Below are positions 24,657 through 58,400 of a stretch of 64,000 bases of DNA, one piece after another. The position numbers and the translations under genes are program-made. The stretch is from positions 1-64,000 of the forward strand of contig JAHHIE010000019.1 in assembly GCA_019358945.1 (NCBI GenBank), written 5' to 3'. The notes under the pieces are model-generated. The model saw only the letters and a list, made by a program, of their open reading frames with translations. It had not been told where the DNA came from and did not search any database. The stretch comes from Stenomitos rutilans HA7619-LM2. GTDB taxonomy: Bacteria > Cyanobacteriota > Cyanobacteriia > Leptolyngbyales > Leptolyngbyaceae. The first letter of the stretch is position 1. Every line of letters begins with the position of its first letter.

Positions 24657-24685
24657 TTGCAATTTTAATACACCTGAACTACAGT
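24657..24685 (+). promoter_or_regulatory. Candidate promoter of the parM/parR-like operon
   Basis: TTGCAA (24657-24662), 17-nt spacer, TACAGT (24680-24685): a good match to a sigma70-type promoter. It would start transcription near 24692, about 65 nt before the ATG, just before the three 10-mer repeats. Confidence 0.45.
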
Positions 24686-24700
24686 ACAGAAATACTAATG

Positions 24701-24730
24701 GGGACAAACGAGAACAAACCGTGACGAACC
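24701..24730. repeat. Three tandem 10-mers before the ParM-like gene
   Basis: GGGACAAACG, AGAACAAACC and GTGACGAACC follow one another without gaps. The shared core is A/G-A-C-A/G-A-A-C. The helical-turn period and the position ahead of a parM-parR-like operon fit binding sites for the RHH adaptor (a parC-like or operator site), which is inference. Confidence 0.4.
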
Positions 24731-24758
24731 GCTACGGATTCAGTATAGAGAGGAACTC

Positions 24759-25778
24759 ATGACTTCCGCTACCAGACAGACAAAAGTTAGAAAACCCCCT
24801 TCTGCGACAACCGCGACCTATACGCTTGCGCTGGATGCAGGAAACTACGACCTCAAATTTTGGGACGGTGAGTCGCACCCTAAAGCCATTCGCTCAGTGC
24901 GCTTCCAACTTCCTCAAGGTCGTGATGCCGTGCGTCACACCGATGCCTCCCCTCTAATTGAGCTACCCGATGGTAACCGCTATCATTTCGGCGCACAGGC
25001 TTACAAATATCGCCGCCAACAGCAAACGGTCGTTGAAAACAAGGTTGAACTGTCCCGTTTGCATCTCTACGCCTGCCTGGAACCCCGCGAAAGTGAGACT
25101 GAATTTGCGATCGACATTTACGCCTCCACCCCAGAACCCGCCAAGAACGAAGATGCCATTCGTCAGCACCTGCTAGGCATGCATGAGTTCAAGCGCAATG
25201 GGCTGGATTATCGCGTCCTGGTAGAACGGGTTGAAGTAGAACGGGAGGGCATGGGTGCATACCATTACGCCCAGCGCTTAGGGCTGATTCCCGATACGGG
25301 CTACACGATCGTCGTAGACATTGGTGGGGGTACCTGGTTGACCCGTCTGGTAGATGCTGAAGGTGACGTGATTGACGAAAACGTGATGGATCGCGGCGGT
25401 GCCTATGAATTGGCGACGTCCATTAGCTTCGATCGTCGCCTGACCAACGCTTTGGGCACAACTGCCGATCCTAGCCTCATCATGGATGGTTTTCGGACAG
25501 GACACAATTACGCCGACACCGAGTTGAGCTGGCAGCCCTGGCTGGAAGAACACCTTGATCCCTGGTTTAAGGGTATCTTTCAAACGGTGAAAGCTCAGTA
25601 CACTCCCTACATGGCGCGAGTAACGCGCTTTTTGGTTACGGGCGGCAGTTCTCACCTCATTTCAGAGCGTCTAGCGGGTCGTAAACTATTCGCCGTGATG
25701 ACTGACCCTCAATTTGCGAACGTGCGTGGTTTATTTCCCGTTGTGAATGGAGCACAGCTATGTATGACAACAAAGTAA
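24759..25778 (+). CDS. ParM/StbA-like actin-family ATPase
   Basis: 339 residues of the ParM/StbA branch of the actin superfamily. Phosphate-1 motif LALDAGNYDLKFW (residues 24-36), phosphate-2 motif YTIVVDIGGGTWLTRLVD (near 185-202) and the adenosine motif RFLVTGGSSHLI (near 290). The N-terminal 20 residues are basic and Thr-rich. It is expected to polymerise with ATP and move DNA bound by its adaptor. The next gene overlaps its 3' end by 19 bp and encodes a small RHH-like protein, the classic parM-parR order. The context (rplI, dnaB, pyk, psbA nearby) indicates chromosome rather than plasmid. The start is supported by GAGGAACTC just before the ATG. Confidence 0.8.
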   Translation: MTSATRQTKVRKPPSATTATYTLALDAGNYDLKFWDGESHPKAIRSVRFQLPQGRDAVRHTDASPLIELPDGNRYHFGAQAYKYRRQQQTVVENKVELSRLHLYACLEPRESETEFAIDIYASTPEPAKNEDAIRQHLLGMHEFKRNGLDYRVLVERVEVEREGMGAYHYAQRLGLIPDTGYTIVVDIGGGTWLTRLVDAEGDVIDENVMDRGGAYELATSISFDRRLTNALGTTADPSLIMDGFRTGHNYADTELSWQPWLEEHLDPWFKGIFQTVKAQYTPYMARVTRFLVTGGSSHLISERLAGRKLFAVMTDPQFANVRGLFPVVNGAQLCMTTK

Positions 25779-26023
25779 GGCTTAGCCAGGATGTACTGGA
25801 AAAAGCCAGCCTGATTGCCTCGGAATGGGGCTTGAAAAATGCTCGCGCTGCGGTAGAAGCCGTTTTTCGCCGCTACGCTGACGAGTACCTTGATGGCACT
25901 GGACGCACACCCCAATGGGCAACCCACGAAGGCTTGCCTGCCAGCATGTTTTTGCTGCCTGAGCGATCGCAGCCCTCTACCTGCGAAGCCCTGAGCGAGC
26001 TAGATGATTTGCTAGGGCTGTAA
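25760..26023 (+). CDS. Small RHH-like adaptor, ParR candidate
   Basis: 87 residues overlapping the ParM-like gene by 19 bp. The N-terminus has ribbon-helix-helix form: strand NKVRLSQ, helix VLEKASLIASEWG, turn, helix ARAAVEAVFRRYADEYL. A Pro/Thr-rich linker follows, and the C-terminus CEALSELDDLLGL is a short acidic amphipathic helix. ParR proteins of type II partition systems combine an N-terminal RHH that binds parC with a C-terminal peptide that binds ParM, so the layout fits. The assignment rests on gene order and pattern, not on recognised identity. Confidence 0.6.
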   Translation: MYDNKVRLSQDVLEKASLIASEWGLKNARAAVEAVFRRYADEYLDGTGRTPQWATHEGLPASMFLLPERSQPSTCEALSELDDLLGL

Positions 26024-45884: not shown

Positions 45885-46313
45885 CGATCGCCCCTCAGAC
45901 AAGGTTCGGCGGTGCAGCGAATTCAGTATTAACCCTGAGATTAACCAACCTTAATGAGCTGGGATTACGGTTGTAAGGGTATTAGTTTGTCTCCTTTGAT
46001 GCAGCTTGCTAGTGAAAAACACGGCAACAAAGCTGCCTTTATGAGAGCCATGCAGCCAAACGCGATCGCTCATGTTCTTTGAAGTGAGCGAAACCTAACA
46101 TTCAGTGCAATGGCATGCTTTCGGCTTTGAGAGTACTGCTTAGCGCTGTCTTTTTTGTGTGCGTCAACCAACGTCAACGCATAGAGGCGCAGGCTAGGAT
46201 TTTTGCTCTTGCTTGCTGAAGCGGTTGTGTTCATGCTGCGGGAGCAACCGTTCTGGCAAACAGGTGATGCAGTAGTTCGTTTTGCAGTTCATTTTTCCTT
46301 CAGTGAGGATTTT
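45885..46313. other. Region upstream of the PhoX-like gene
   Basis: 429 bp. Apart from the candidate Pho box (45928-45957) nothing with coding character is seen; a frame open from 46203 to the PhoX start is not supported as translated. It should hold the phoX promoter. Confidence 0.4.
45928..45957 (+). promoter_or_regulatory. Candidate Pho box
   Basis: ATTAACCC, ATTAACCA and CTTAAT recur about every 11 bp (12, then 10), resembling the (C/T)TTAA(C/T)(C/T)-type tandem Pho box of cyanobacteria. It lies 357 bp before the PhoX-like start, which is far. Spacing is imperfect. Confidence 0.35.
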
Positions 46314-48698
46314 ATGCCTAATTTTTCGCGCCGACAATTATTGGTTTTCTTTGGGAGCACTGCTGCGGCTACCGCTTTAGAACCAGTTGTGAGTCACAAA
46401 CTCTTTGGCGGTAGCAATGCCAGCACCGCTGAAGCGGCTTCTCTCACGTTTACGCCCGTGCGTCTACCGCATCCATTGCCGATTTACCAACAGCAGAGTA
46501 GCTTTTTAGCCACTGGTTTTGGTCAGGGTAGTGTGCTACCAGCCGCACCAGCCCCTAATCTCGATACCTTTAGCCCTATTGATGACCTGGTTGTGCCGCC
46601 AGAGTATGAGCGCTATGTCATCGTGAGCTGGGGCGATCGCGTCTTCCCAAACGAGGAAGATTACTTTGGCTATAACTGTGATTACACAGGCTTTGTGCCT
46701 ACTGAAGGCCGCAACGATGGCTATCTTTGGGTGAATCACGAATACAATAGTTTCCCTATTTCTCCCTTTGCACCTGAAGCGCCTACCGATGTGGCTACGT
46801 TTGCCGCCTCTGGTCCGATCGTGATCGAGGGGTTTCCCACTGAGCGAGGGCGTGCGCTTTCGGGTGAGTTTATGTACAACATGGGTGGGTCGATCGTTCG
46901 CCTCGTCCGTGAGGGTCGTAGAGAACGGTTTGCTGTCGTCGAAGATGAGAAAAATCGCCGTCTTCATGGCTTATCGGGTCTGGGCATCAATAGTCAGCGC
47001 TCCGATACCTACAACAATGTCACCAGTTGGGGATCGAAAAACTACCAAACAGGCGATCAAAACTATCTCATTGCGACTGGGCCTGCTGCCAGTGACGTGT
47101 TTGAAGGCATTAATTCAGATGGATTAGGCAATAAGATTATTGGAACGGCTTACAACTGCTCTGGCGGCACTAGCCCCTGGGGAACTATACTCTCTGCCGA
47201 GGAAAACTTTCAAGGATCAACAGGCGCGTTCTTTGTGGGCGTTCAGGAAAATATCAAGCCTGACGGGACTCAAACTGCCTATGCTGCGGGCACGACTGGG
47301 GCAGAATTTGGTTTGGTAGGTGAGAAATATGGCTGGATAGTGGAAATTGACCCAGCTAATCCTGAATTCCGTCCCCGTAAACATACGTCACTCGGTCGAT
47401 ATCGCCATGAAAACATTGCCATGCGTGTGCAGGCAGGCAAGAAGCTGGTGGCGTATATGGGTGACGATCGCCGAGGCGGGCACACCTGGAAGTTTGTCAG
47501 TAAAGGTACGGTCAAAAATCCTAAGAGCAACAGCAACAGCAAGCTGTTTGAAACCGGCACACTCTATGTTGCGAAGTACAATGCCAATGGCACGGGTAAC
47601 TGGCTACCGCTGCTGCTCTCGTCGCCCACCAATCCAGTGAAGCCCTCTGACCTGACGGCTGGTGACCCGTTGAAGCTTAGAAGTGGTAGCACCCGATTCC
47701 CCAAACGGGCAGGCATTGCGGGTCAGACTAGCGATGGTGGATCAGTGGTCGTAGCGCTTACCCAACTAACCAGTACGACCAACGGTGTCACAACGGTTAC
47801 AGCCGTGGCTGAAAGCGATGCGTTACCGGGCTACCAGGGTAAAAAGTTAAGTGACTTCTACACCAGCCAGGGTGCTGTTCTGGTCGATGCGTTTCTGGCG
47901 GCTAATTTGATTGGTGCGACTCCCACGGCTCGCCCTGAAGACATTGAAATCAACCCCAGGAATCCCAGAGAAGTCTTCATTTCTTATACCGATGGTGCTC
48001 CTGGCAGCGATGGCTACCCCGATTCCCGCATCTTTGTGGTGGGTAAGTACGCAGCAGCGGTCAACGACACCCAGCAATCGGGCGGTCTCTACAAGATTAT
48101 TGAAGATAGCGCTGATGGCACAGGTACAACGTTCCGCTGGGAGCGGTTTGTTCAAGGTGGTGAGGCGGGAGCCGAAGCGGGTGCAGGGTTTGCCTCTGTT
48201 GATAACCTGGTCTTCGATAACCGTGCCAACATTTGGGGTGTGACGGACATGTCTACAACCACCCACAATGGGTTTGCGACGGGCGCGGCTGGGACACCAA
48301 ACCTGATCGACCATACCAAAACAGGTGATGTGTCTGCCTTTACGGGCGTGTTTGGTAACAACTGGTTGTTCTACATTCCCACAACGGGTGACCACGCAGG
48401 GCAAGTAGTGCCGTTTGCCTACGGGCCACCACGCTGCGAGATGACAGGCCCCACGTTTGTGGGCGACACGTTGATTATCTCGGTACAACATCCTGGTGAG
48501 GACTGCCCCTTTACGCCAAATGTGACCTTGAGCCGCACGATCGAGCTTTTAGCCTTGAGCGGCACCTTGTTTAATCAAACGCGGACTGTCTCACGTGGTA
48601 GCAACTGGCCCAGCAACATTCAAGGGCAGGCAGACGGGCCACCAAAGCCCTCGGTCGTTGGCATTCGTCGCAAGCGATCGAACGGTCAGTTTGTTTGA
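46314..48698 (+). CDS. PhoX-like phosphatase (DUF839), Tat-exported
   Basis: About 794 residues. The Tat signal FSRRQLLVFFGSTAAATALE (twin Arg at residues 6-7) is followed by the DUF839/PhoX beta-propeller: LWVNHEYNSFP, GGTSPWGTILSAEENFQG, GRYRHENIAMRVQAGKKLVA, EDIEINPRNPREVF. PhoX enzymes bind Ca2+/Fe3+ and hydrolyse phosphomonoesters in the periplasm or outside under phosphate limitation. ATG 46314 with GTGAGG upstream is chosen; a TTG at 46203 would put 37 residues before the Tat signal. Whether all metal ligands are present was not checked residue by residue. Confidence 0.85.
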   Translation: MPNFSRRQLLVFFGSTAAATALEPVVSHKLFGGSNASTAEAASLTFTPVRLPHPLPIYQQQSSFLATGFGQGSVLPAAPAPNLDTFSPIDDLVVPPEYERYVIVSWGDRVFPNEEDYFGYNCDYTGFVPTEGRNDGYLWVNHEYNSFPISPFAPEAPTDVATFAASGPIVIEGFPTERGRALSGEFMYNMGGSIVRLVREGRRERFAVVEDEKNRRLHGLSGLGINSQRSDTYNNVTSWGSKNYQTGDQNYLIATGPAASDVFEGINSDGLGNKIIGTAYNCSGGTSPWGTILSAEENFQGSTGAFFVGVQENIKPDGTQTAYAAGTTGAEFGLVGEKYGWIVEIDPANPEFRPRKHTSLGRYRHENIAMRVQAGKKLVAYMGDDRRGGHTWKFVSKGTVKNPKSNSNSKLFETGTLYVAKYNANGTGNWLPLLLSSPTNPVKPSDLTAGDPLKLRSGSTRFPKRAGIAGQTSDGGSVVVALTQLTSTTNGVTTVTAVAESDALPGYQGKKLSDFYTSQGAVLVDAFLAANLIGATPTARPEDIEINPRNPREVFISYTDGAPGSDGYPDSRIFVVGKYAAAVNDTQQSGGLYKIIEDSADGTGTTFRWERFVQGGEAGAEAGAGFASVDNLVFDNRANIWGVTDMSTTTHNGFATGAAGTPNLIDHTKTGDVSAFTGVFGNNWLFYIPTTGDHAGQVVPFAYGPPRCEMTGPTFVGDTLIISVQHPGEDCPFTPNVTLSRTIELLALSGTLFNQTRTVSRGSNWPSNIQGQADGPPKPSVVGIRRKRSNGQFV

Positions 48699-49014
48699 AG
48701 CAACGCTGTATTGAAGGAGGCGATCGCATCTCTCTGCACAGCCAACGAGTAGGAAGGGCGTAAGGGGAACCGGTTAAACGTCACGCTGTTTCCCCACTCT
48801 CCTTTTTCTATCAAAGTCGTTTCCTCTGCTCAATCTGGTCAAAAAGTCTTGAGCGGTATCCAACCATTCACAGAGGGTTTAAAGTAAGTCAGCACACACT
48901 CAATCAGGGCATGGAGGCATGTAACTTTGCAAGTTGCGTGTCAAATCATCGCATTCGCTTAAGTTGGCTTCAGACGTTTAAGTTGGCTTCAGACTTTCAT
49001 CGTATTGGGACATT
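48699..49014. other. phoX-pilB-like gap with a 17-bp direct repeat
   Basis: 316 bp. TTAAGTTGGCTTCAGAC occurs at 48959-48975 and again at 48978-48994 (period 19), just before the ATPase gene. A GGGGAA/TTCCCC imperfect stem near 48770-48795 could be a weak terminator for the phosphatase gene. No gene seen. Confidence 0.4.
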
Positions 49015-50760
49015 ATGCAGGCTTCAAACGCGTCACCTTCAGCTTGGCAGCAACTTAAAAATCGCGATATCACCTGCGAAGAAGCCATCCATCTTCTAGT
49101 AGATGAGCAGGGCATTGTTAATCTTCCGTTGCTCGATCGCGAGGTCACCTACCGTTTTCTCAAATCATCGACTGATCGCCGATCGCTGCCGCCTGTGATG
49201 CCGCTGCTGCTGTGGCGCAACTGCTATTACCTGGGTAGCCCCATTGCGCTCAGTGAAGCGGCGGTCGCCAGCCTGAGAGAGCAGACTGGCACAACCATTC
49301 AAATGATTGCGATCGCCGAACAGAGCTACCGTGCCTGGTTCCAAAGCCAAACGTTTGACCAAACTCGCATCAGTGCCGATGCGCTGACCAACCCGCTTAC
49401 TGGGGAAGTCGAGCAAGAAAATATTGGCATTGTGACAGAACTCCATCTGTCAAAAGCGACGGATCAGATTGGGCGCATCAAAGCGCTGATTTCTGGGGCT
49501 TTACGGAACCGTGCCAGTGACATTCATTTAGAACCAACGATCGATGGTTTGCGAGTGCGCTACCGCATTGACGGCATTCTGCGCAACATTACAACCCTAC
49601 CTTTGGAGGTTAGTCGGCGAGCCGTCGTTGCCCTTAAAGTGATGGCAGATATGGATATTTCCGAGAGCCGTCGCCCGCAAGATGCCCGCATCAGTGAGAA
49701 ATACGTTTCGGAAACCGAAGCGGAAGTTGGGCTGGATATGCGAGTCAGCACATTGCCGTGCGTGGGCGGCGAGAAGGCTGTCATTCGCCTCCTCCCCCGC
49801 CAAAATCCATTCTCCAGCATTAACGAACTGGGATTTTCTGACAAGGCGCTAGCGATTTACAAAGGATGGTTGGCACAGCCGCAGGGGATGGTCATTTTTA
49901 CTGGCCCAACAGGGTCGGGCAAAACCAGTACGCTGTACACCAGTTTGCAGGCGATCGCCACCGAGCACGTCAACGTCGTCACGGTCGAAGATCCCGTTGA
50001 GTACGTGCTGCCGTGTATTACTCAAACTCAGGTGCATGAACCCGCAGGCATGACGTTTGCGGCAGGACTCCGCGCCATTTTGCGGCAAGACCCCGATATC
50101 ATCATGCTGGGGGAAATTCGCGATCACGAGACGGCTGAAACCGCCGTTCGGGCAGCACTGACGGGGCACCTCGTTCTTACGACGCTGCATACCAACGATG
50201 CCACCAGCGCCATTCCCCGCTTAAAAGATATTGGCCCCGACCCAGGGTTGATTAGCGATGCGCTGCTGGGCATTGTGGCTCAACGGTTGGCACGCAAAGT
50301 GTGTACACACTGCGCCGAACCCTACACACCCACTGAGAAAGATTTAAACGTGCTTGGACTGGAGTTGAAGCAGGCAAACTCAACCGCATGGCGATGTGGA
50401 AAAGGCTGCGGACGCTGCTTTAACTCTGGCTATTTGGGCAGAGAAGCGTTGATCGAAATGCTAAATATTGATACAACCGTGCGGCAAATTATCTATGAAG
50501 GCAGCATGACCGACCTGCATAAATACTTGAATGACAGCGGGTTTCAATCCTTTCAACTTGCCGCGATCGAAAAAGTCACGACAGGTAGAACCACAGTGGA
50601 GGAAGTACTGCGCGTACTGCCCCACAGTGCCCTCTATCGCAGACGATCGCCGATCGCTTCAAATTCAATCGCCCCCAATCTGATCGCGCCCAAGCCACCA
50701 GACCCAAGCCGAAATCCGATCGCTCCTAACAGCTTGAAGGAAAAGAACGCGCTGAACTAA
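49015..50760 (+). CDS. GspE/PulE/PilB-family secretion/pilus ATPase
   Basis: 581 residues. The N2-type domain (SDIHLEPTIDGLRVRYRIDG, near 165) precedes the RecA-like domain with Walker A FTGPTGSGKTSTLYT near 300, the Asp box VVTVEDPVEYVLP, Walker B DIIMLGEIRDHETAETAV and the His box HLVLTTLHTNDA. A four-Cys zinc motif is visible (CTHCAEPY and CGKGCGRC). It is shorter than PilB1 of cyanobacteria (about 670) because the N1 domain is reduced. The last 40 residues (SPIASNSIAPNLIAPKPPDP) are a repeat-like tail. No pilC, pilT or gsp genes adjoin. It energises pilus or type II-like assembly. Confidence 0.88.
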   Translation: MQASNASPSAWQQLKNRDITCEEAIHLLVDEQGIVNLPLLDREVTYRFLKSSTDRRSLPPVMPLLLWRNCYYLGSPIALSEAAVASLREQTGTTIQMIAIAEQSYRAWFQSQTFDQTRISADALTNPLTGEVEQENIGIVTELHLSKATDQIGRIKALISGALRNRASDIHLEPTIDGLRVRYRIDGILRNITTLPLEVSRRAVVALKVMADMDISESRRPQDARISEKYVSETEAEVGLDMRVSTLPCVGGEKAVIRLLPRQNPFSSINELGFSDKALAIYKGWLAQPQGMVIFTGPTGSGKTSTLYTSLQAIATEHVNVVTVEDPVEYVLPCITQTQVHEPAGMTFAAGLRAILRQDPDIIMLGEIRDHETAETAVRAALTGHLVLTTLHTNDATSAIPRLKDIGPDPGLISDALLGIVAQRLARKVCTHCAEPYTPTEKDLNVLGLELKQANSTAWRCGKGCGRCFNSGYLGREALIEMLNIDTTVRQIIYEGSMTDLHKYLNDSGFQSFQLAAIEKVTTGRTTVEEVLRVLPHSALYRRRSPIASNSIAPNLIAPKPPDPSRNPIAPNSLKEKNALN

Positions 50761-50786
50761 GTTTTATACCAAGGCAAAACTACTCA

Positions 50787-50957
50787 TTAAAAACAATCCA
50801 AATCACGATGTTCACTGAAATTGTAGGTTCTACTACCTCGCTTAGGCTGCGATCGTTCTGGCTTCTGAAATTTGCTAGAACTATCCGAATTAGGTTGGTT
50901 TGGATTCTTTGAGTTTTGGCTAGACTGTTCAGAGAATTTATCTTCTGGCTCAGACAT
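50787..50957 (-). CDS. Small hydrophilic protein, hypothetical
   Basis: 57 residues from ATG 50957 (MSEPEDKFSEQSSQNSKNPN). It is rich in Ser, Asn and Gln and ends PKRGSRTYNFSEHRDLDCF, a more ordered-looking tail. No family recognised and no strong ribosome-binding site. It could be a chance frame; the coherent hydrophilic composition is the only support. Confidence 0.3.
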   Translation of the reverse strand: MSEPEDKFSEQSSQNSKNPNQPNSDSSSKFQKPERSQPKRGSRTYNFSEHRDLDCF

Positions 50958-51064
50958 GGAAGATAAGAATAATTTAGCAACCGAAAAGGAACAAAGCGTT
51001 GAACTCGTCATTTAAGATAGGTATAAGTAGTACCCTTGCTTTAACAATAATCGTGACTGTATAG

Positions 51065-51265
51065 GGATTACTACCCAAACCAGCAGATGAATTCTACACA
51101 GCTAGTGAACTATTAGACGAGCTAGAGAGCTACGACCGATGCTATTCAATGCAGTACATTACTTTAAGTCGTGCCGAGACTCTCAAAAGCTTAGATGAGT
51201 TGCGCCTCCCAAAAGTAACATGCCTTAAATGGGCAACTTTCCTAATTATGTTTGCACATTACTAG
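51065..51265 (+). pseudogene. Protein-like reading-frame remnant ended by a MITE
   Basis: After a stop at 51062-51064 the frame runs LLPKPADEFYTASELLDELE, SYDRCYSMQYITLSRAE, TLKSLDELRLPKVTC and so on for 66 codons. Its stop (TAG, 51263-51265) is the first three bases of the MITE. There is no start codon before ATG 51150. This looks like the tail of an older gene interrupted by the element. The family is unknown. Confidence 0.35.
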
Positions 51266-51373
51266 GACTTACGCAAAAGCGATCATCTTTCGCCCCCTAG
51301 CCCCCAATGCTGGGGGAACCGAGCCAATTAAAGCCCCCAGCATTGGGGGTTTGGGGGCAAATGCGTAGTCCTA
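51263..51373. mobile_element. MITE, 111 bp, TIR TAGGACTTACGCA, 5-bp target duplication
   Basis: Starts TAGGACTTACGCAAAAGC and ends GCAAATGCGTAGTCCTA (one base short in the inverse). ATTAC flanks both sides exactly (51258-51262 and 51374-51378). Inside, CCCCCAATGCTGGGGG and CCCCCAGCATTGGGGG pair. Its ends match those of the 18298 copy in inverted order. No coding. Confidence 0.85.
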
Positions 51374-51463
51374 ATTACTATTCGCTGTTGACATAGTTTT
51401 ACACACAGCTACCTAAGTAAAATTTTGAGCGTACAAGAAAAGGGGGCGACTGCGTAAGTTCTA
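51374..51463. other. Short gap after the MITE
   Basis: About 90 bp to the 3' end of the next minus-strand gene; no feature seen. Confidence 0.3.
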
Positions 51464-52027
51464 TTATTTTCTTACGCCTTGAGCATAAGCAGGTACGACA
51501 GGTGCTGGCCGAGCGCTGGCGGTAATGGATTGCCCAGACATAATCACTGCTTTGATTGGCAAGACCGTTGAGCGGAAGCCCTCTTTGGTTGGTTGTAGTG
51601 CTAGAAAAGAAACGCTCCACCCTGCTTGCTGTAGTGTCCAGGCCGATACGCCACCTTCTCTCGTTGCAGTAGGGTAGATCATTTGAGGTAGATAAGTTAC
51701 GGCGATCGCGTCAAAGTCAGCCCCAGATTCGTAAAGCACTCGCCGGATCTCTTGCCAGCAATCGGTAGTCGGTTGCATCCGTGCGCCGTTACTCATCAGC
51801 CTAGCGCCCAACAGGCTTGTCAATTTAGCGCAGATTTCTTCAAGACGAGAACAATCGCCCCTCAGCAACATTGCTTCTTCTGGCAAGAGGATGTCGTCTG
51901 TTTTGGGCGTCCAAAGTTCAAAGCAGGTATGCGCGTCAATAGGGACGGTCGTTAGCTTGAGGTGAGACGGCAGCCCTAAGGGATTGGGGGCGACCGCAAG
52001 TGCAACTGGAATGAAGGAGTCAAGCAT
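51464..52027 (-). CDS. Hypothetical protein
   Basis: 187 residues, not recognised. It begins MLDSFIPVALAVAPNPLGLP, has a mixed alpha/beta middle (CFELWTPKTDDILLPEEAMLL, then LTSLLGARLMSNGARMQP) and a tail rich in Pro and Ala. No membrane helix. AAGGA lies about 11 bases before the ATG. Codon use is ordinary for the window, so it is probably real. Confidence 0.5.
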   Translation of the reverse strand: MLDSFIPVALAVAPNPLGLPSHLKLTTVPIDAHTCFELWTPKTDDILLPEEAMLLRGDCSRLEEICAKLTSLLGARLMSNGARMQPTTDCWQEIRRVLYESGADFDAIAVTYLPQMIYPTATREGGVSAWTLQQAGWSVSFLALQPTKEGFRSTVLPIKAVIMSGQSITASARPAPVVPAYAQGVRK

Positions 52028-52522
52028 GAGCGTACAGTTCCTTCAGTAAACTCAATGGGTTAGTGATATAGCAAGTTGACATAGGTTGCAGGCGGTTTGC
52101 AAGTGGCTTTAGCCCCTTACCAGGCAGATTGAGTTGTGCCTTTTGGACTGCGCCTTTTGCACTGTTTGCGCTTGCTTCCGCTGGTAAACCACCACGTACT
52201 GACCTTCCTAAGATGGCTCCTGCTAGAGACTCTTTTGTACTGAAACGATAAAAAAAGGGTGAAGCAAGGATGAAATCTGTCTTCACATCGTCCCTTTTCA
52301 CCGCCTTCATTCGTCTCTAACAAATGAGATTGGTCAGCGCTGCAAGACGCCTTAAGATGGTAGAAGAGTCATCCAGATTACAAAGCCGGGTTGTGCATCG
52401 AACAAACACATTGATACCTCAACCCCTCTTTGGTACCTCTTTAAGGATCACTTGAGGCTAGACGGAGACGAACCGTTTGGCATAAGTCTTGACTACTTCA
52501 ACTTGTTCTTTGAACGCGACGC
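52028..52522. other. Gap between hypothetical and DUF4346 genes
   Basis: 495 bp. A minus-strand frame (52310-52020) of 96 codons is open but has the composition GLPAEASANSAKGAVQKAQ with no recognisable fold and is not counted as a gene. No clear promoter was picked out for the plus-strand gene at 52523. Confidence 0.35.
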
Positions 52523-52909
52523 ATGATGAATCAAACTATTGCAGATATCACTGCAATTGATCAAAAGTTATCCAAACGTCATATTGATCTTGATCCCGGT
52601 GGATACGTCATCATCTACCTCGATCGGGAGCAAAGGCTGATTTGCGCCAAGCATTTCACCAACGTTATTGACGATCGGGGCCTAGCCTGCGATCCCGCAA
52701 CTGGCAAACCCATTCCCACACGCGGCAAAATCGAACGACTGCCCGCTCATATTTTCAGTGGCAGAACCGCCAAAGAAATCTGCGTGCAGCTTTTTGAGCA
52801 AACAAACCCATGCCCTATCATTATGCTCGACCATGCCTCCTACCTCGGACGCGAGTTTCAACGGGCAGAAGCAGCACTACTGAGTGGGCAAGAGTACGTA
52901 CAGGACTAA
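52523..52909 (+). CDS. DUF4346 domain-containing protein
   Basis: 128 residues: LDPGGYVIIYLDREQRLICA, AHIFSGRTAKEICVQLFEQ and HASYLGREFQRAEAALLSG match DUF4346, a domain resembling the N-terminal part of tetrahydromethanopterin S-methyltransferase subunit A. In cyanobacteria it is a widespread single-domain protein of unknown role. A second Met one codon later is equally possible. Converges with psb32. Confidence 0.75.
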   Translation: MMNQTIADITAIDQKLSKRHIDLDPGGYVIIYLDREQRLICAKHFTNVIDDRGLACDPATGKPIPTRGKIERLPAHIFSGRTAKEICVQLFEQTNPCPIIMLDHASYLGREFQRAEAALLSGQEYVQD

Positions 52910-52920
52910 AAAGAGTTAAA

Positions 52921-52986
52921 AGTTTTGAGTTTTAAGTTCTGAGTTGTATATCTGCATTCAAAACTCGAAACTTAAAACTCAAAACT
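52921..52986. repeat. 25-bp inverted heptad repeat between convergent genes
   Basis: AGTTTTGAGTTTTAAGTT and on to 52945 pairs with 52962-52986 in 23 of 25 positions, with a 16-nt loop. The arms are GTTTTGA-type heptads. It lies between the DUF4346 and psb32 stops and would make a strong stem for both transcripts. Confidence 0.75.
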
Positions 52987-52991
52987 GATCA

Positions 52992-53720
52992 CTAGCCTTC
53001 TCGCGCTTGGAGATACAGGTAAAAATAGTACGTTGCCATCGGTACAACCGTTGCAACCACAAGGAAGCCAATGACCCAAACCGTTGCATTACTTTCTTTC
53101 GTTTGCTCTGGCGTTGCAAAGGTACCTTCGACTTGAACGTTATCAGTCAGCGTCGGCGGTCCTGGATCGGGGCGACCGGAGAGTACGGCGCTGAGGCGAT
53201 CGCCCGCACCCAAGAGCGCTTGATTGTACTTGTTTCCTTCTTTGAGCGGAATCAAGACAGTTTCTTGCGTCACGCTCTCAGCAAGATCATCTGTTAGCTT
53301 TGTTTTCACCGCTTCACCCGCACTCAAGGCAACGTTGTTAGTGAGACTATCTAACACCAATAAGGTCTGGTTTGCCTTCGCCTCTGAAGTCGGGAACCAA
53401 CGATCAAAGAGCTTGTCGGTAAAGGTTTCGATCGTCTCGCCATAATCCAAGCGGTGAATCGTCACAAAGTGAACCTCATTCCCCGTTTGCTTTGCCAGAT
53501 CCCTCAACGTCGTCGCAATTTTGCCCTCGTTAGAGCGACTCAAAACTTCTGCCTGATCAACAATCCAGGTGCCGACCTTTGGTTTTGGCACTTCACTTAC
53601 GCCTGTAGCGCTGGCAGGCAAGGCAAAAAGCTGTGTTGCCAAGACGAAAACTGCAAGAGAAACAAGCAAGTGCTGAGTAAAGTGCTTCCAATAGCAGAGT
53701 GATTTGAAGAGGCGTTGCAT
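52992..53720 (-). CDS. psb32: TPM-domain protein, Psb32-like
   Basis: 242 residues. Signal peptide (LLVSLAVFVLATQLFALPAS), TPM domain (VDQAEVLSRSNEGKIATTLR, VHFVTIHRLDYGETIETF, residues 50-180) and a C-terminal membrane helix (VWVIGFLVVATVVPMATYYF). This layout matches Psb32 of cyanobacteria, a thylakoid lumenal PSII-associated protein that aids repair and protects from photodamage. The alternative is a general TPM phosphatase-like protein; the length and topology favour Psb32. Confidence 0.8.
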   Translation of the reverse strand: MQRLFKSLCYWKHFTQHLLVSLAVFVLATQLFALPASATGVSEVPKPKVGTWIVDQAEVLSRSNEGKIATTLRDLAKQTGNEVHFVTIHRLDYGETIETFTDKLFDRWFPTSEAKANQTLLVLDSLTNNVALSAGEAVKTKLTDDLAESVTQETVLIPLKEGNKYNQALLGAGDRLSAVLSGRPDPGPPTLTDNVQVEGTFATPEQTKESNATVWVIGFLVVATVVPMATYYFYLYLQAREG

Positions 53721-53846
53721 AAGACCGTTCTAAAAAACTTATTACTCCAAAATACTACGCTTATACAAAAGATGGATAGAGGCAAGGGAGGGGAGGCAGC
53801 TTCCTCTGCTTCCCCTGCTTCCTCTGCTCCGACTCCCTCTTCACCA

Positions 53847-55139
53847 CTAATGACCGTTCAAGTAATAATCTCTTGTGCCCTTAGCGCTAATGGCTTCACC
53901 GAGGCGGGTTAAAGCATGGACGTAGGCAGCGGTGCGTAAGTCGATCGACAAATCACGGGCGATCAACCAGATGGATTCCGATTCCTCGACGATGCGGTAT
54001 TTGAGTCGTTGGTTGATCTCATCCAACGTCCAGTACAGGCCGCTGCGGTTTTGCACCCACTCAAAGTAGCTCACTGTAACCCCGCCCGCGTTGACGAGAA
54101 TGTCTGGAAAGACGTAGATGCCTTGATCGCTTAGGATGCGATCGGCGGCAGAGGTAATGGGGCCATTGGCGACTTCATAGATGAGTTTTGCCCGAATCAT
54201 GTCGGCATTGGCCTCAGTGATTTGATTCTCAAGGGCAGCAGGTACCAGAATATCCACATCCAGAGCAAGCAGCTCAGCATTGGTGAGTACGTCGTCAGCG
54301 GCTGTGTGGCAAACAGTACTGTCGCAGTACAGCGCTTTAACCCCTCGGTGAGAGTCCTTGAACTGGCGAATGCTGGGAATGTCCAGCCCATTTTTGGCAT
54401 AGATGCCACCCTGCGAATCGCTGACCGCAACAACTTTATAGCCTGCTCGAAAGAGCAATTCTGCGAGGATGCCCCCAGCGTTGCCAAAGCCCTGAACGGC
54501 TACGGTTGTGGTGCTGGGGTGACGATCGAACTTGGGCAGCGTTGATTCAATGACAAAAAAGGCACCCATTGCCGTTGCGGTTTCGCGGCCCAGGCTGCCG
54601 CCCATGCTGACAGGTTTTCCGGTGACAACAGCAGGACAGATCTGGCGCTTGATGATGCTGTATTGATCCATCATCCAGCCCATGATCATGGCGTTGGTAT
54701 AAACGTCAGGAGCCAGGATGTCTACATCAGGCCCAATGAAATCGGCGATCGCATCAATATACCCCCGGCTCAGACGCTCCAATTCCATACGGGACAATTC
54801 TTTTGGATTCACAGTGATGCCGCCTTTTGCCCCCCCAAACGGAAGGCTGAGCGCCGCGCACTTAAAGGTCATCCAAAACGCCAGGGACTGCACTTCATCT
54901 AGCGAAACGTGGGGATGATAGCGCACGCCACCTTTACCGGGGCCTCGCGTATCGTCATAGCGCACGCGGTAACCCTGAAAAAGCTTGAGCGAGCCGTTAT
55001 CCATGCGAACGGGGATCGAAACTGTCAGGCTGGTTTGGGGAAATTTTAGCGTTTCAACGGCATCCTCTGAAATAGACGTATATTTCAGTGCATGTTCCAG
55101 TCGTTGATTAGCATCGGCTAAAAGCGAATCAGGTATCAT
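53847..55139 (-). CDS. gdhA: Glutamate dehydrogenase
   Basis: 430 residues from ATG 55139, supported by AGGAAGAG just upstream. The substrate site is GPGKGGVRYHPHVSLDEV, the catalytic lysine lies in LPFGGAKGGITVNP (near 115), and the Rossmann motif is VAVQGFGNAGG near 220. It interconverts glutamate with 2-oxoglutarate and ammonia in the cytosol; in cyanobacteria it supplements GS/GOGAT. NAD or NADP preference is not settled. The upstream frame to 55328 is rejected. CheA lies upstream, same strand, 328 bp away. Confidence 0.95.
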   Translation of the reverse strand: MIPDSLLADANQRLEHALKYTSISEDAVETLKFPQTSLTVSIPVRMDNGSLKLFQGYRVRYDDTRGPGKGGVRYHPHVSLDEVQSLAFWMTFKCAALSLPFGGAKGGITVNPKELSRMELERLSRGYIDAIADFIGPDVDILAPDVYTNAMIMGWMMDQYSIIKRQICPAVVTGKPVSMGGSLGRETATAMGAFFVIESTLPKFDRHPSTTTVAVQGFGNAGGILAELLFRAGYKVVAVSDSQGGIYAKNGLDIPSIRQFKDSHRGVKALYCDSTVCHTAADDVLTNAELLALDVDILVPAALENQITEANADMIRAKLIYEVANGPITSAADRILSDQGIYVFPDILVNAGGVTVSYFEWVQNRSGLYWTLDEINQRLKYRIVEESESIWLIARDLSIDLRTAAYVHALTRLGEAISAKGTRDYYLNGH

Positions 55140-55467
55140 AAAACTCTTCCTTTCAGTAAGTGCACGATCGCTGTGCTCTATTGCAGCCACCGCAACAATA
55201 ATGGGCGCATCTAAAGACGCTAGCTGTTTCTTCAACGATCCTGCCAATGGTTTTGGCACTATAGAGAATTTCGTTGCTTTTCTATAGAGTTCCCAAACAC
55301 AAAACGCCGTTGATATAACGATCCCCACTTTGCGGGAAGAAATTTTAGAGATAAAGAATGCCTTGATCTTTTAGGTGGTTGCTGAACATACTTCTTCTGT
55401 ATAGAAAGTTCATAAAGCCGCGATCGCGTTTCTAAGGGGTGAGTTCTGCGGCGGCTCCCTTCAGCAA
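55140..55467. other. gdhA upstream region
   Basis: 328 bp between the cheA stop and the gdhA start. It should hold the gdhA promoter; AGAACTTTC-like and TATACAG-like sequences occur but no box pair was convincing. No gene. Confidence 0.35.
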
Positions 55468-58400
55468 TTAATGTACTATAAGGTTCAGTAGCGCGTTAAC
55501 TTTTTTCAGTAAATCAACGGTAGAGAATCCTTTGGTTAAATAGTCATTTGCACCTAAGCGTCGGGCTTCATCAAACCATTCTTCTGATAAACGGGACGAA
55601 ACAACCAGAATAGGTACCTTAATCCCTGCTTGACGGCAGCGATCGACTAGCGTGAATCCATCCATATTTGGCATTTCGATGTCTGTAATGACGAGATTAG
55701 GCTGAGGATTCGTCTGGAGCCAGTGCCATGCTTCTTGACCATCGGCACAGGTATGGGTGAGATAGCCATTACTATGCAGGCTGGCCTCCAACCGTCGCCG
55801 CATCAACGCCGCATCATCCACAATAAGGATTGATTGAGTCGGATGGTCAGCGTGCCAGTCATCTGGCTCAGAAGGCGTAATGGAAACCGCTTCTATAGTC
55901 GGTGCTGGAGTCGTTAAAAGCTGTTCTGCCACAGCCTGTGCTTCCAGTACAGGAACGAGAGATCCACTTGCCTGTAGGCTGACTCCGATTAACCCATTGG
56001 GTACAGCTAGTGGCCGTGGAATGGGGTTAATCATGAGTTCCGCTTGCTCTAGAAGTTCGTCAGCCAGTAACCAAGCACCTTGCTGGGTGCCTGCTAACGC
56101 CACGTAAAGACAAACGGTAGTATTCGTTAAGGGACGATCGGGTGCCTGCGGTTGCCAATACCTGAGCAAATCTAGCGCTGGCAACGAACCAGTTTCATGG
56201 CGAATGATCCAGGTGTAGGCTTGGCTCGGATCTGCGGGAAGGGGCGCATCTAGGCTATCTAAGAGAGTAATCGTCCTGATGTCATCCTCTGGAATCGCAA
56301 CGGTCTGCTCACCGACTTGCAGCAACACGCAAGGAACTAATAGTCGCGGCACTGGGAATTGAATTTGAAACGTGGTACCAGTGCCAGGAACCGTACTGAG
56401 ACTCAATCGCCCACCAAGACGAGCCACCTGAGCGGCAACCACATCCATCCCCACCCCGCGTCCAGAAATTTCACTGACCTGATTTTGGGCGCTAAAACCT
56501 GGCTGGCAAATCACAGCTAAAAGCGCTGCTGGCGTTTGGGCACTACACAGCGGCAGGTGTAAGGCTTCGGCTCTCGCTTGAATGGTGCTGGCATCCATCC
56601 CACGACCATCATCCTGAATTTCAAACTGAAAGCGATTGCCCTGCCGTTGGAGCGATAGCGTAATGGTTCCTTGCTCTGGCTTCCCTTTAGCGGCCCGCTC
56701 AGCAGGGGACTCCAACCCATGATCGTAGGCATTCCGAATGAGGTGAAGCAAGGCGGGTTCCAGGTTACGGGCGATCGTGACATCCAATTCTGTTTTTTCT
56801 CCCTGCACGAGCAACTGGGCAGGCTTGTTATAGCGTGTAGTGAGGTCACGCAAAATCGCTCTGGCACGGAAGCTCAAGTTTTGGAAGGCTACCAGGCGGC
56901 TATCTTCGATCGTGCTTTGTAGCTTGAGTACGTTGCGATCGACGCTTTGAAGATAGGCCGCGATTTGCTGTGTCGTTTTGCCAGTCTCTGCACCCATTTC
57001 AGATAAGCGAAGGCTCGTTTCCAGTAGCCGATTGATGACGGTATAACCCTGGCGATAGCGTTCTGGGGTTGGGCCAGCGGGTGCCTGGGAGCTAAGGCTC
57101 AGCTCTTCCAGTAGGGTATAGTCATCCTGAATTTGACGAAGATGCGTAATACATTGTGCGCCTTCTTGGGCAAGCGTCATAATCTGCGCGATCTGGCTTT
57201 GTAACGCTTGATAAAAGCCCTGCGTGGTACGCAAGCTTAGCAGCGTTTCAACCAGGTGTTGTGCCGATTGATCAAGCGACTCTAAAGGGACAGGAATTTG
57301 CACTTTCTCCAGGGTTTGGATCGCAGGATCGGGCTTTGGCAGTGCGGTTTGGTTGACGATCGAAGGGGGATGTAAAGATTGCGACCCGTCGATCGCGTCT
57401 CGTTGTTCATGCAGGGGCGCTTGAGATTCAGCCGAATTCTCGATTGGGCTAGTTTCGACCAACCAATCTAGCTCTGGTTCCTCATTCAAGGGGATCTCTG
57501 GCGAAGAGGTTGAGTCGGGCGTTATAATCCCGCGATCGTCGGCTAAGCGGAGTTCATCTGGATGGAAGTTTTCATCTGCAAAAGCTGGTGCGTCTTCAAG
57601 AGGGAAGGCATCGTTGAGAAAATCGATGATTTGTGATGTTGAAGTTGCTTCAGTTGGAGCCAGGGCCGCAAAAGATGCACTAGCAAGCCAGTCTTGATCT
57701 AACGTATCGCTGCGATCGATTTCACAATTGGGATCAGAGACGACCTCAAGTGTTGGCTCTACTAAACGGTTCTGCTCCGGGTCTAAATCACTGCTTACCT
57801 GGCCCGTGACACCGTCTATAAAGGGATCGACGAGATCATCAACATGTTCGGTCTGCGAGATAGCTTCACCAGAATGCAACGCATCGAGAAACGTGCCAAC
57901 GTCAGCAATGATATCTGTCTGTTCAAAATAAGCCAGCAAAGCATCAGGTTCATGAGCGTTTAACTCATGCACATCTGAGTCATGAATGCCCAATGGTGCA
58001 AAGGCTTCCATACTCAGATCGGTTAAGGGTTCGGTCATCCAGGCATTGCTTTCGTCCACCTCTGACTCGGCAGGCAGAGAATGATTCAACAGAGAACTGT
58101 CAGGCTGAAAACTCGCAGACTGAAAACTGTCAAAGGCAAAAGGTACAGGCTGTCCGCTTTGCTTTGCACACCGCTTCAGTGCCTGGAAAAACAGTGACCA
58201 TTGCGATCGCCAAACGGCATTATCTCGATGCTCCAACAAGAGCTGCGCTTTTTGAAGAAGCTCTGCCCAACCGGATGCCAGGTGCAACTCTTGACCAATT
58301 TCGGCGAGTTGCTTCAAACTCTGCTGAGCCGTGTGAACCGTGCTGGCAGAGACCATTCCCGTTTTGGGCAGACGCTCTAGCGCTATATCGAGTTCCAGCA

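Follow-up and report, generated by a model that had tools for sequence, protein, structure and literature searches.

At this locus, two overlapping genes encode an actin-like ATPase and a small ParR-like protein, and they are preceded by a promoter, a palindrome and a short array of tandem 10-mers (Table 1). The window, meaning the whole 64-kb stretch of DNA that was analyzed, lies on a contig of 106 kb. The first-pass annotation had read the locus as a type II partition system, and the three parts that it named, a ParM-type actin, an RHH-type partner and a parC-like array, are all present.

Table 1. Features of the operon and its upstream region (window coordinates)
Feature	Position	Strand	Description or basis
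Promoter: -35 TTGCAA (24657-24662), 17-bp spacer, -10 TACAGT (24680-24685)	24657..24685	+	weak consensus; aligned with relatives
LexA-box-like palindrome AGTATTTCTGTACT, overlapping the -10	24683..24696	-	16.5 bits, matrix of published sites
parC-like array GGGGACAAAC GAGAACAAAC CGTGACGAAC and a weak fourth unit CGCTACGGAT	24700..24739	+	periodicity tests, genome scan
ParM-like actin ATPase, 339 aa	24759..25778	+	Pfam, PHROG, fold matches, invariant nucleotide motifs
ParR-like protein, 87 aa	25760..26023	+	RHH-type N-terminal domain (residues 1-48), variable linker, acidic C-terminal helix CEAL-ELDDLLGL

The product of the first gene belongs to the ParM group of actin-fold ATPases, as had been proposed. 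It matches Pfam ALP_N (E=2e-6, over the cut-off) and the PHROG "partition protein" (E=5.9e-19), and its AlphaFold model matches Ta0583 (Z 23.4), Alp7A (21.9), CorM (21.6), pSK41 ParM (20.9), Dh-cParM1 (20.1), R1 ParM (19.1) and AlfA (17.9). The nucleotide motifs D26-x-G28-N29, D187-I-GGG-T192 and G295-G296 are intact and invariant in 24 orthologues, among which about 156 residues are invariant in total. A basic N-terminal tail (about residues 1-20) precedes the actin core. Tails of ~12-30 residues occur in nearly all actins of the chromosomal clade and are missing from the closest plasmid relatives; the start codon lies about 20-40 residues before the core aspartate in most chromosomal actins versus 8 in those plasmid relatives. 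Among its close kin, the basic tail (MTxxTRQxxxRK...) thus appears to be specific to the chromosomal clade, a feature newly noted here. No phage relative was found.

The second gene overlaps the first by 19 nt, and such an overlap is the rule at homologous loci with a recognized partner (87 of 106, some loci being represented more than once). Its product is predicted to start with a strand-helix-helix arrangement (helices 10-23, 28-44 and 76-84 in the AF2 model, whose confidence is low overall (61) and fair over the RHH part only). A fold prediction of this protein had been called for, and all informative matches were indeed RHH proteins of the NikR, CopG, Arc and VapB/MazE types, although they are weak (Z ≤3.6). 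Residues K5, R7 and most of residues 3-41 are invariant among homologues; in RHH proteins, the strand with K5 and R7 is the one that contacts DNA. The linker is variable, the core of the C-terminal EAL..LD.LL motif is invariant, and the small proteins encoded beside plasmid and Symploca ParMs end in a similar motif. A conserved C-terminal motif together with an RHH-type N-terminus fits a ParR that binds actin through its C-terminus. The small, overlapping, RHH-like protein with an acidic C-terminal helix that the first reading described is therefore probably an RHH partner with a ParM-binding C-terminal segment, and we infer that it binds both DNA and filaments. Pfam and NCBIfam assign it to no family, a PDB sequence search with its profile returned chance matches only (the best being an archaeal histone), and tblastn recovered no plasmid relative.

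A promoter upstream of the actin gene had been described as good. It exists, but its consensus is modest in the window, where TTGCAA-17-TACAGT was not listed by a consensus scan; relatives have TTGACA-N17-TATAGT at the same position. Alignment of the homologous upstream regions reveals TATAGTACnnnnGTACTAA-tGGGGACAAA. Its part AGTACnnnnGTACT overlaps the -10 and is identical to the LexA consensus published for cyanobacteria, AGTACWNWTGTACT (PMC3091678). The first reading had mentioned neither this box nor the relation to CorMR/FcmBC described below. Scored with a matrix of 48 published cyanobacterial LexA sites, which come from lexA, recA, uvrA, ssb and other genes (PMC3091678), the palindrome in the window is the top site of the 64 kb, and none of 6000 background segments scores as high. 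With the 95% background level as threshold, a LexA-like box is present in all 74 homologous upstream regions, and with the 99% level in 66 of them; one half-site is degenerate in the genus of the window. The finding of a promoter palindrome that matches the cyanobacterial LexA box and is kept in all 74 of these regions is new.

The matrix was also applied to control genes. In the same genomes, most lexA promoters contain GGTACAnnTGTTCT or a near variant, and nine of ten reach roughly the 99% background level or exceed it. No box was found within 275 bp of recA, the other positive control, in ten of ten Leptolyngbya-like genomes, and dnaN, the negative control, has a box in two sister genomes. 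Read by eye, the sequence of LexA from the host genome has an intact Ala-Gly cleavage site and both catalytic residues, Ser and Lys. Control of the operon by LexA is suggested by the box, but is uncertain because the recA promoters of these genomes lack one; in these Leptolyngbya-like genomes, LexA may control something other than a classical SOS regulon. Among upstream regions of FcmB/CorM-type genes, 10 of 31 exceed the 99% level, where 1% is expected.

The tandem 10-mers noted in the first reading are present at 24700-24729. Self-similarity phased at 10/11 bp is significant in the 160 bp upstream of the ATG (p=0.002 when compared with Markov shuffles, and p=0.03 when periods 8-13 are tested more loosely), and the phased 10-bp pattern occurs only once in the whole 7.3-Mb genome. 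The genus of the window retains a good array. Across the clade, the first unit GGGGACA is widely kept, 16 bp (or 36-37 bp) past the palindrome, and the full array is found mainly in near relatives. An array is significant at p=0.05 in just 11 of 74 chromosomal upstream regions and is therefore not conserved across the clade; its decay outside the near relatives is likewise a new finding. On contig C70 of the host genome and on the Oscillatoria plasmid pOSCIL6304.01, plasmid-type ParM genes also follow a 10-bp array of this type (p=0.002 each). Contig C70 (344 kb) has two plasmid-type parM regions (46000-56000 and 148000-158000) that lie 102 kb apart and are identical over 9800 compared bases, and it may represent a circular plasmid that was assembled more than once.

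Orthologues of the operon lie on the largest contig (5.3-7.3 Mb) of seven near-complete relatives (G010, G011, G019, G027, G030, G033 and G057), which indicates that the locus is chromosomal, as the first-pass annotation had assumed from its surroundings. Counting the host genome, a close match (67-98% identity, or 66-98% when named genomes are added) was found in 34 of the family's 35 genomes, and some genomes of other families have one as well. Among the named genomes with the operon are those of Lyngbya sp. HA4199-MV5 (98%), Stenomitos frigidus, Tildeniella nuda, Leptolyngbya, Myxacorys, Phormidesmis, Oculatella and Nodosilinea. The hosts belong to one large group of filamentous cyanobacteria made up of Leptolyngbya-like genera, Nodosilinea, Oculatella and their relatives. 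Presence in relatives at the same locus had been proposed as a check: the operon is there, but its flanks are shared by near relatives only. The neighboring nitrilase and S9 peptidase are common to relatives with at least 93% identity, and neither was found as a shared neighbor beyond the genus; the operon thus persists while its surroundings change. In the seven relatives, it lies 0.76-2.2 Mb from dnaN (13-35% of the contig), dnaN being assumed to mark the origin. A second, diverged dnaN-like gene is found on a secondary contig of two sister genomes (G011:C2 and G033:C2; E about 1e-36).

By sequence, the actin is related to plasmid ParMs. In a maximum-likelihood tree, a branch with 91/95 support separates the chromosomal sequences, which fall within plasmid ParMs and have as neighbors the Symploca ParMs and the ParM of Allocoleopsis plasmid pMIC7113.05 (A. 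franciscana PCC 7113, NC_019741), the nearest plasmid relative found (49.7% identity). The plasmid parM is likewise followed by a small gene whose product has a similar C-terminal motif (DATNALDALLSA). Unlike the window operon, however, the plasmid encodes an actin without an N-terminal tail and a partner whose RHH region is unrelated by sequence, and its upstream region has neither a strong LexA-like box (10.0 bits) nor a significant 10-bp periodicity (p=0.2). In Symploca, the parM genes have an additional small RHH-like frame (MTKRREVRFFPDEEHLDILESLQ...) about 50-300 bp upstream, besides the downstream ParR-like gene.

Taken on its own, relatedness to plasmid ParMs could reflect a partition locus that was integrated recently and by accident and has no role in the cell. 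This is very improbable: the operon occurs in nearly the whole family and parts of others at 66-98% identity, with its roughly 156 invariant residues in 24 orthologues, it stays while its neighbors change, and no plasmid relative exceeds 50% identity. The operon is instead a fixed trait of the lineage. The earlier suggestion of capture from a plasmid is thus upheld as to ancestry, but the capture is an old, clade-wide one.

The type II plasmid systems ParMRC (R1, pSK41), AlfA and Alp7A resemble the operon in the actin fold, in upstream repeats and, as predicted for the window operon, in an RHH-type partner with an acidic C-terminal helix; the window operon differs from them in being chromosomal and in its array, which comprises 3-4 short units and is not kept across the clade. 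CorMR of Anabaena sp. PCC 7120 is reportedly the subject of a preprint by Springstein, Loose and colleagues. Its actin CorM (PDB 9RMI) is the homologue of FcmB, a chromosomal ParM-derived actin that sets cell shape with its partner FcmC in Nostoc punctiforme and forms membrane filaments around the cell, and whose mutants show no obvious nucleoid change (PMC12645912). FcmBC/CorMR and the window operon are both of plasmid ancestry, lie on chromosomes of filamentous cyanobacteria and pair a ParM-derived actin with a small partner encoded downstream; their actins match in fold (Z 21.6) and are both extended N-terminally of the core. The two actins, in contrast, have no significant pairwise similarity (BLASTP E=0.056; profile comparison probability 20%), and the partners differ in sequence and in length, that of FcmBC/CorMR comprising about 150-169 residues (MFQWSKKVVKSVTFNP...) and that of the window family 79-104 residues with the RHH domain MYDNKVRLS....

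The two systems are also rarely found in the same genome. A CorM/FcmB set was identified in Nostocaceae-like genomes through its match to Anabaena CorM 9RMI (708 bits, E=2e-212). Among 195 genomes of the class, the window family occurs in 35, the CorM family in 52 and both in four. When HetR is used as a marker of filamentous forms, 97 genomes remain, with 34, 42 and four, respectively (Fisher p=3.7e-6 in a test that ignores shared ancestry), so that 4 of the 72 HetR-bearing genomes with either system have both. Family f24 contains six genomes with the window family and 13 with the CorM family, with zero overlap; three of the genomes with both systems belong to family f13. Direct orthology with FcmB/CorM was rejected on the basis of the actin sequence, the different partner and this rare co-occurrence. 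In the tree, a single clade of the window family and FcmB is not rejected (AU p=0.146) owing to the very long branch of FcmB. We favor two separate domestications of the window family and CorM, without regarding them as proven. From the sequences compared here, the window operon would represent a second, apparently new ParMR lineage resident on cyanobacterial chromosomes.

Two further observations concern CorM/FcmB-type genes. One genome has a second such gene (G134:C2, 978-2520, reverse complement), a 514-residue frame with a hydrophobic and coiled-coil-like N-terminal stretch before the actin core, as if the protein were anchored directly in the membrane. Large plasmids of Trichormus, Dolichospermum and Nostoc (NC_007410.1, NZ_CP047243.1, NZ_CP043059.1 and NZ_CP026684.1) carry genes of this type as well (69-76% identity), although the published FcmB genes are described as chromosomal.

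We lean towards the view that the operon is a domesticated, plasmid-derived ParMR that has long been kept as a chromosomal system separate from CorMR, with filaments most likely serving a role in the cell. Its long conservation in this branch of the cyanobacteria suggests that it probably serves the cell itself, and by analogy with CorMR, a role in cell shape would be likelier than chromosome segregation. A counterargument is that the invariant K5 and R7 and the good array in the window's own genus would also fit a live partition system. Such a system, in which the partner on the promoter array would act as a centromere complex and filaments would push sister chromosomes or polyploid copies apart, has all three type II parts and invariant residues in the RHH strand to speak for it, as well as the array of the same type before a plasmid-type ParM on C70. 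Chromosome-encoded ParMs that polymerize are also known from Desulfitobacterium and Clostridium (PMC12270681). Those of D. hafniense and C. botulinum are likewise chromosomal ParM-type actins, but come from Firmicutes, match the window actin negligibly in sequence (E=0.59) and have no known function (PMC12270681). That the operon moves chromosome copies, as the first-pass annotation had suggested, nevertheless seems unlikely given an array that reaches significance at no more than 11 of the 74 orthologous loci, the absence of a second array from the genome, the distance of 0.76-2.2 Mb from dnaN and the precedent of CorMR/FcmBC, which controls shape and leaves the nucleoid without obvious change.

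The conserved palindrome raises a different question, namely which protein occupies it. Short palindromes are targets of RHH repressors, and AGTACnnnnGTACT is kept wherever the RHH partner occurs; it could therefore serve as an operator for this partner itself, without any part for LexA. We regard this as possible but doubtful, as the palindrome matches a matrix built from sites at lexA, recA, uvrA, ssb and other genes, and the same box lies near FcmB-type genes that have a different partner, mostly in genomes without a full window-type operon. A box placed over the -10, above the 95% level in every upstream region and top-scoring in the window could equally belong to an actin regulated by LexA and DNA damage, whose filaments would form once LexA is inactivated and, while repair proceeds, would alter the shape of the cell, its division or its nucleoid. 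The retained cleavage and catalytic residues of LexA and the excess of boxes near FcmB-type genes are consistent with this. It is offered as a tentative explanation, since recA has no box in ten genomes, LexA of cyanobacteria does not always act as an SOS repressor (PMC3091678), a half-site is degenerate in the genus of the window, and another protein, the operon's own RHH protein included, could bind the palindrome.

For the domesticated system that we prefer, a mechanism is proposed where the actin-like protein would polymerize with ATP and the partner would dimerize through its RHH domain. Bound to the promoter-proximal GGGGACA/10-mer sites, the partner would control its own operon, while its acidic C-terminal helix would engage filament ends in a ParR-like manner. 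A LexA-type repressor at the -10 palindrome would form a second layer of control. The filaments would then act in a cellular role such as cell shape, replacing CorMR, and not in plasmid segregation. DNA-binding autoregulation would probably have been retained during this change, with the partition array in decay.

More speculatively, filamentous cyanobacteria could have domesticated plasmid ParMR systems independently at least twice, as chromosomal cytoskeletons that replace one another from lineage to lineage, the window operon being the one that came under LexA control and whose filaments respond to DNA damage or to some other signal acting through LexA; we hold this broader scenario to be conceivable rather than likely. 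If plasmid segregation actins did become cytoskeletons more than once in one phylum, repeated recruitment from plasmids would be possible, and the two lineages would form a natural replicate for the changes that are needed: loss of the array, a new N-terminal tail, a new partner and new promoter control. The LexA-like box would, in addition, predict specifically when the filaments are made.
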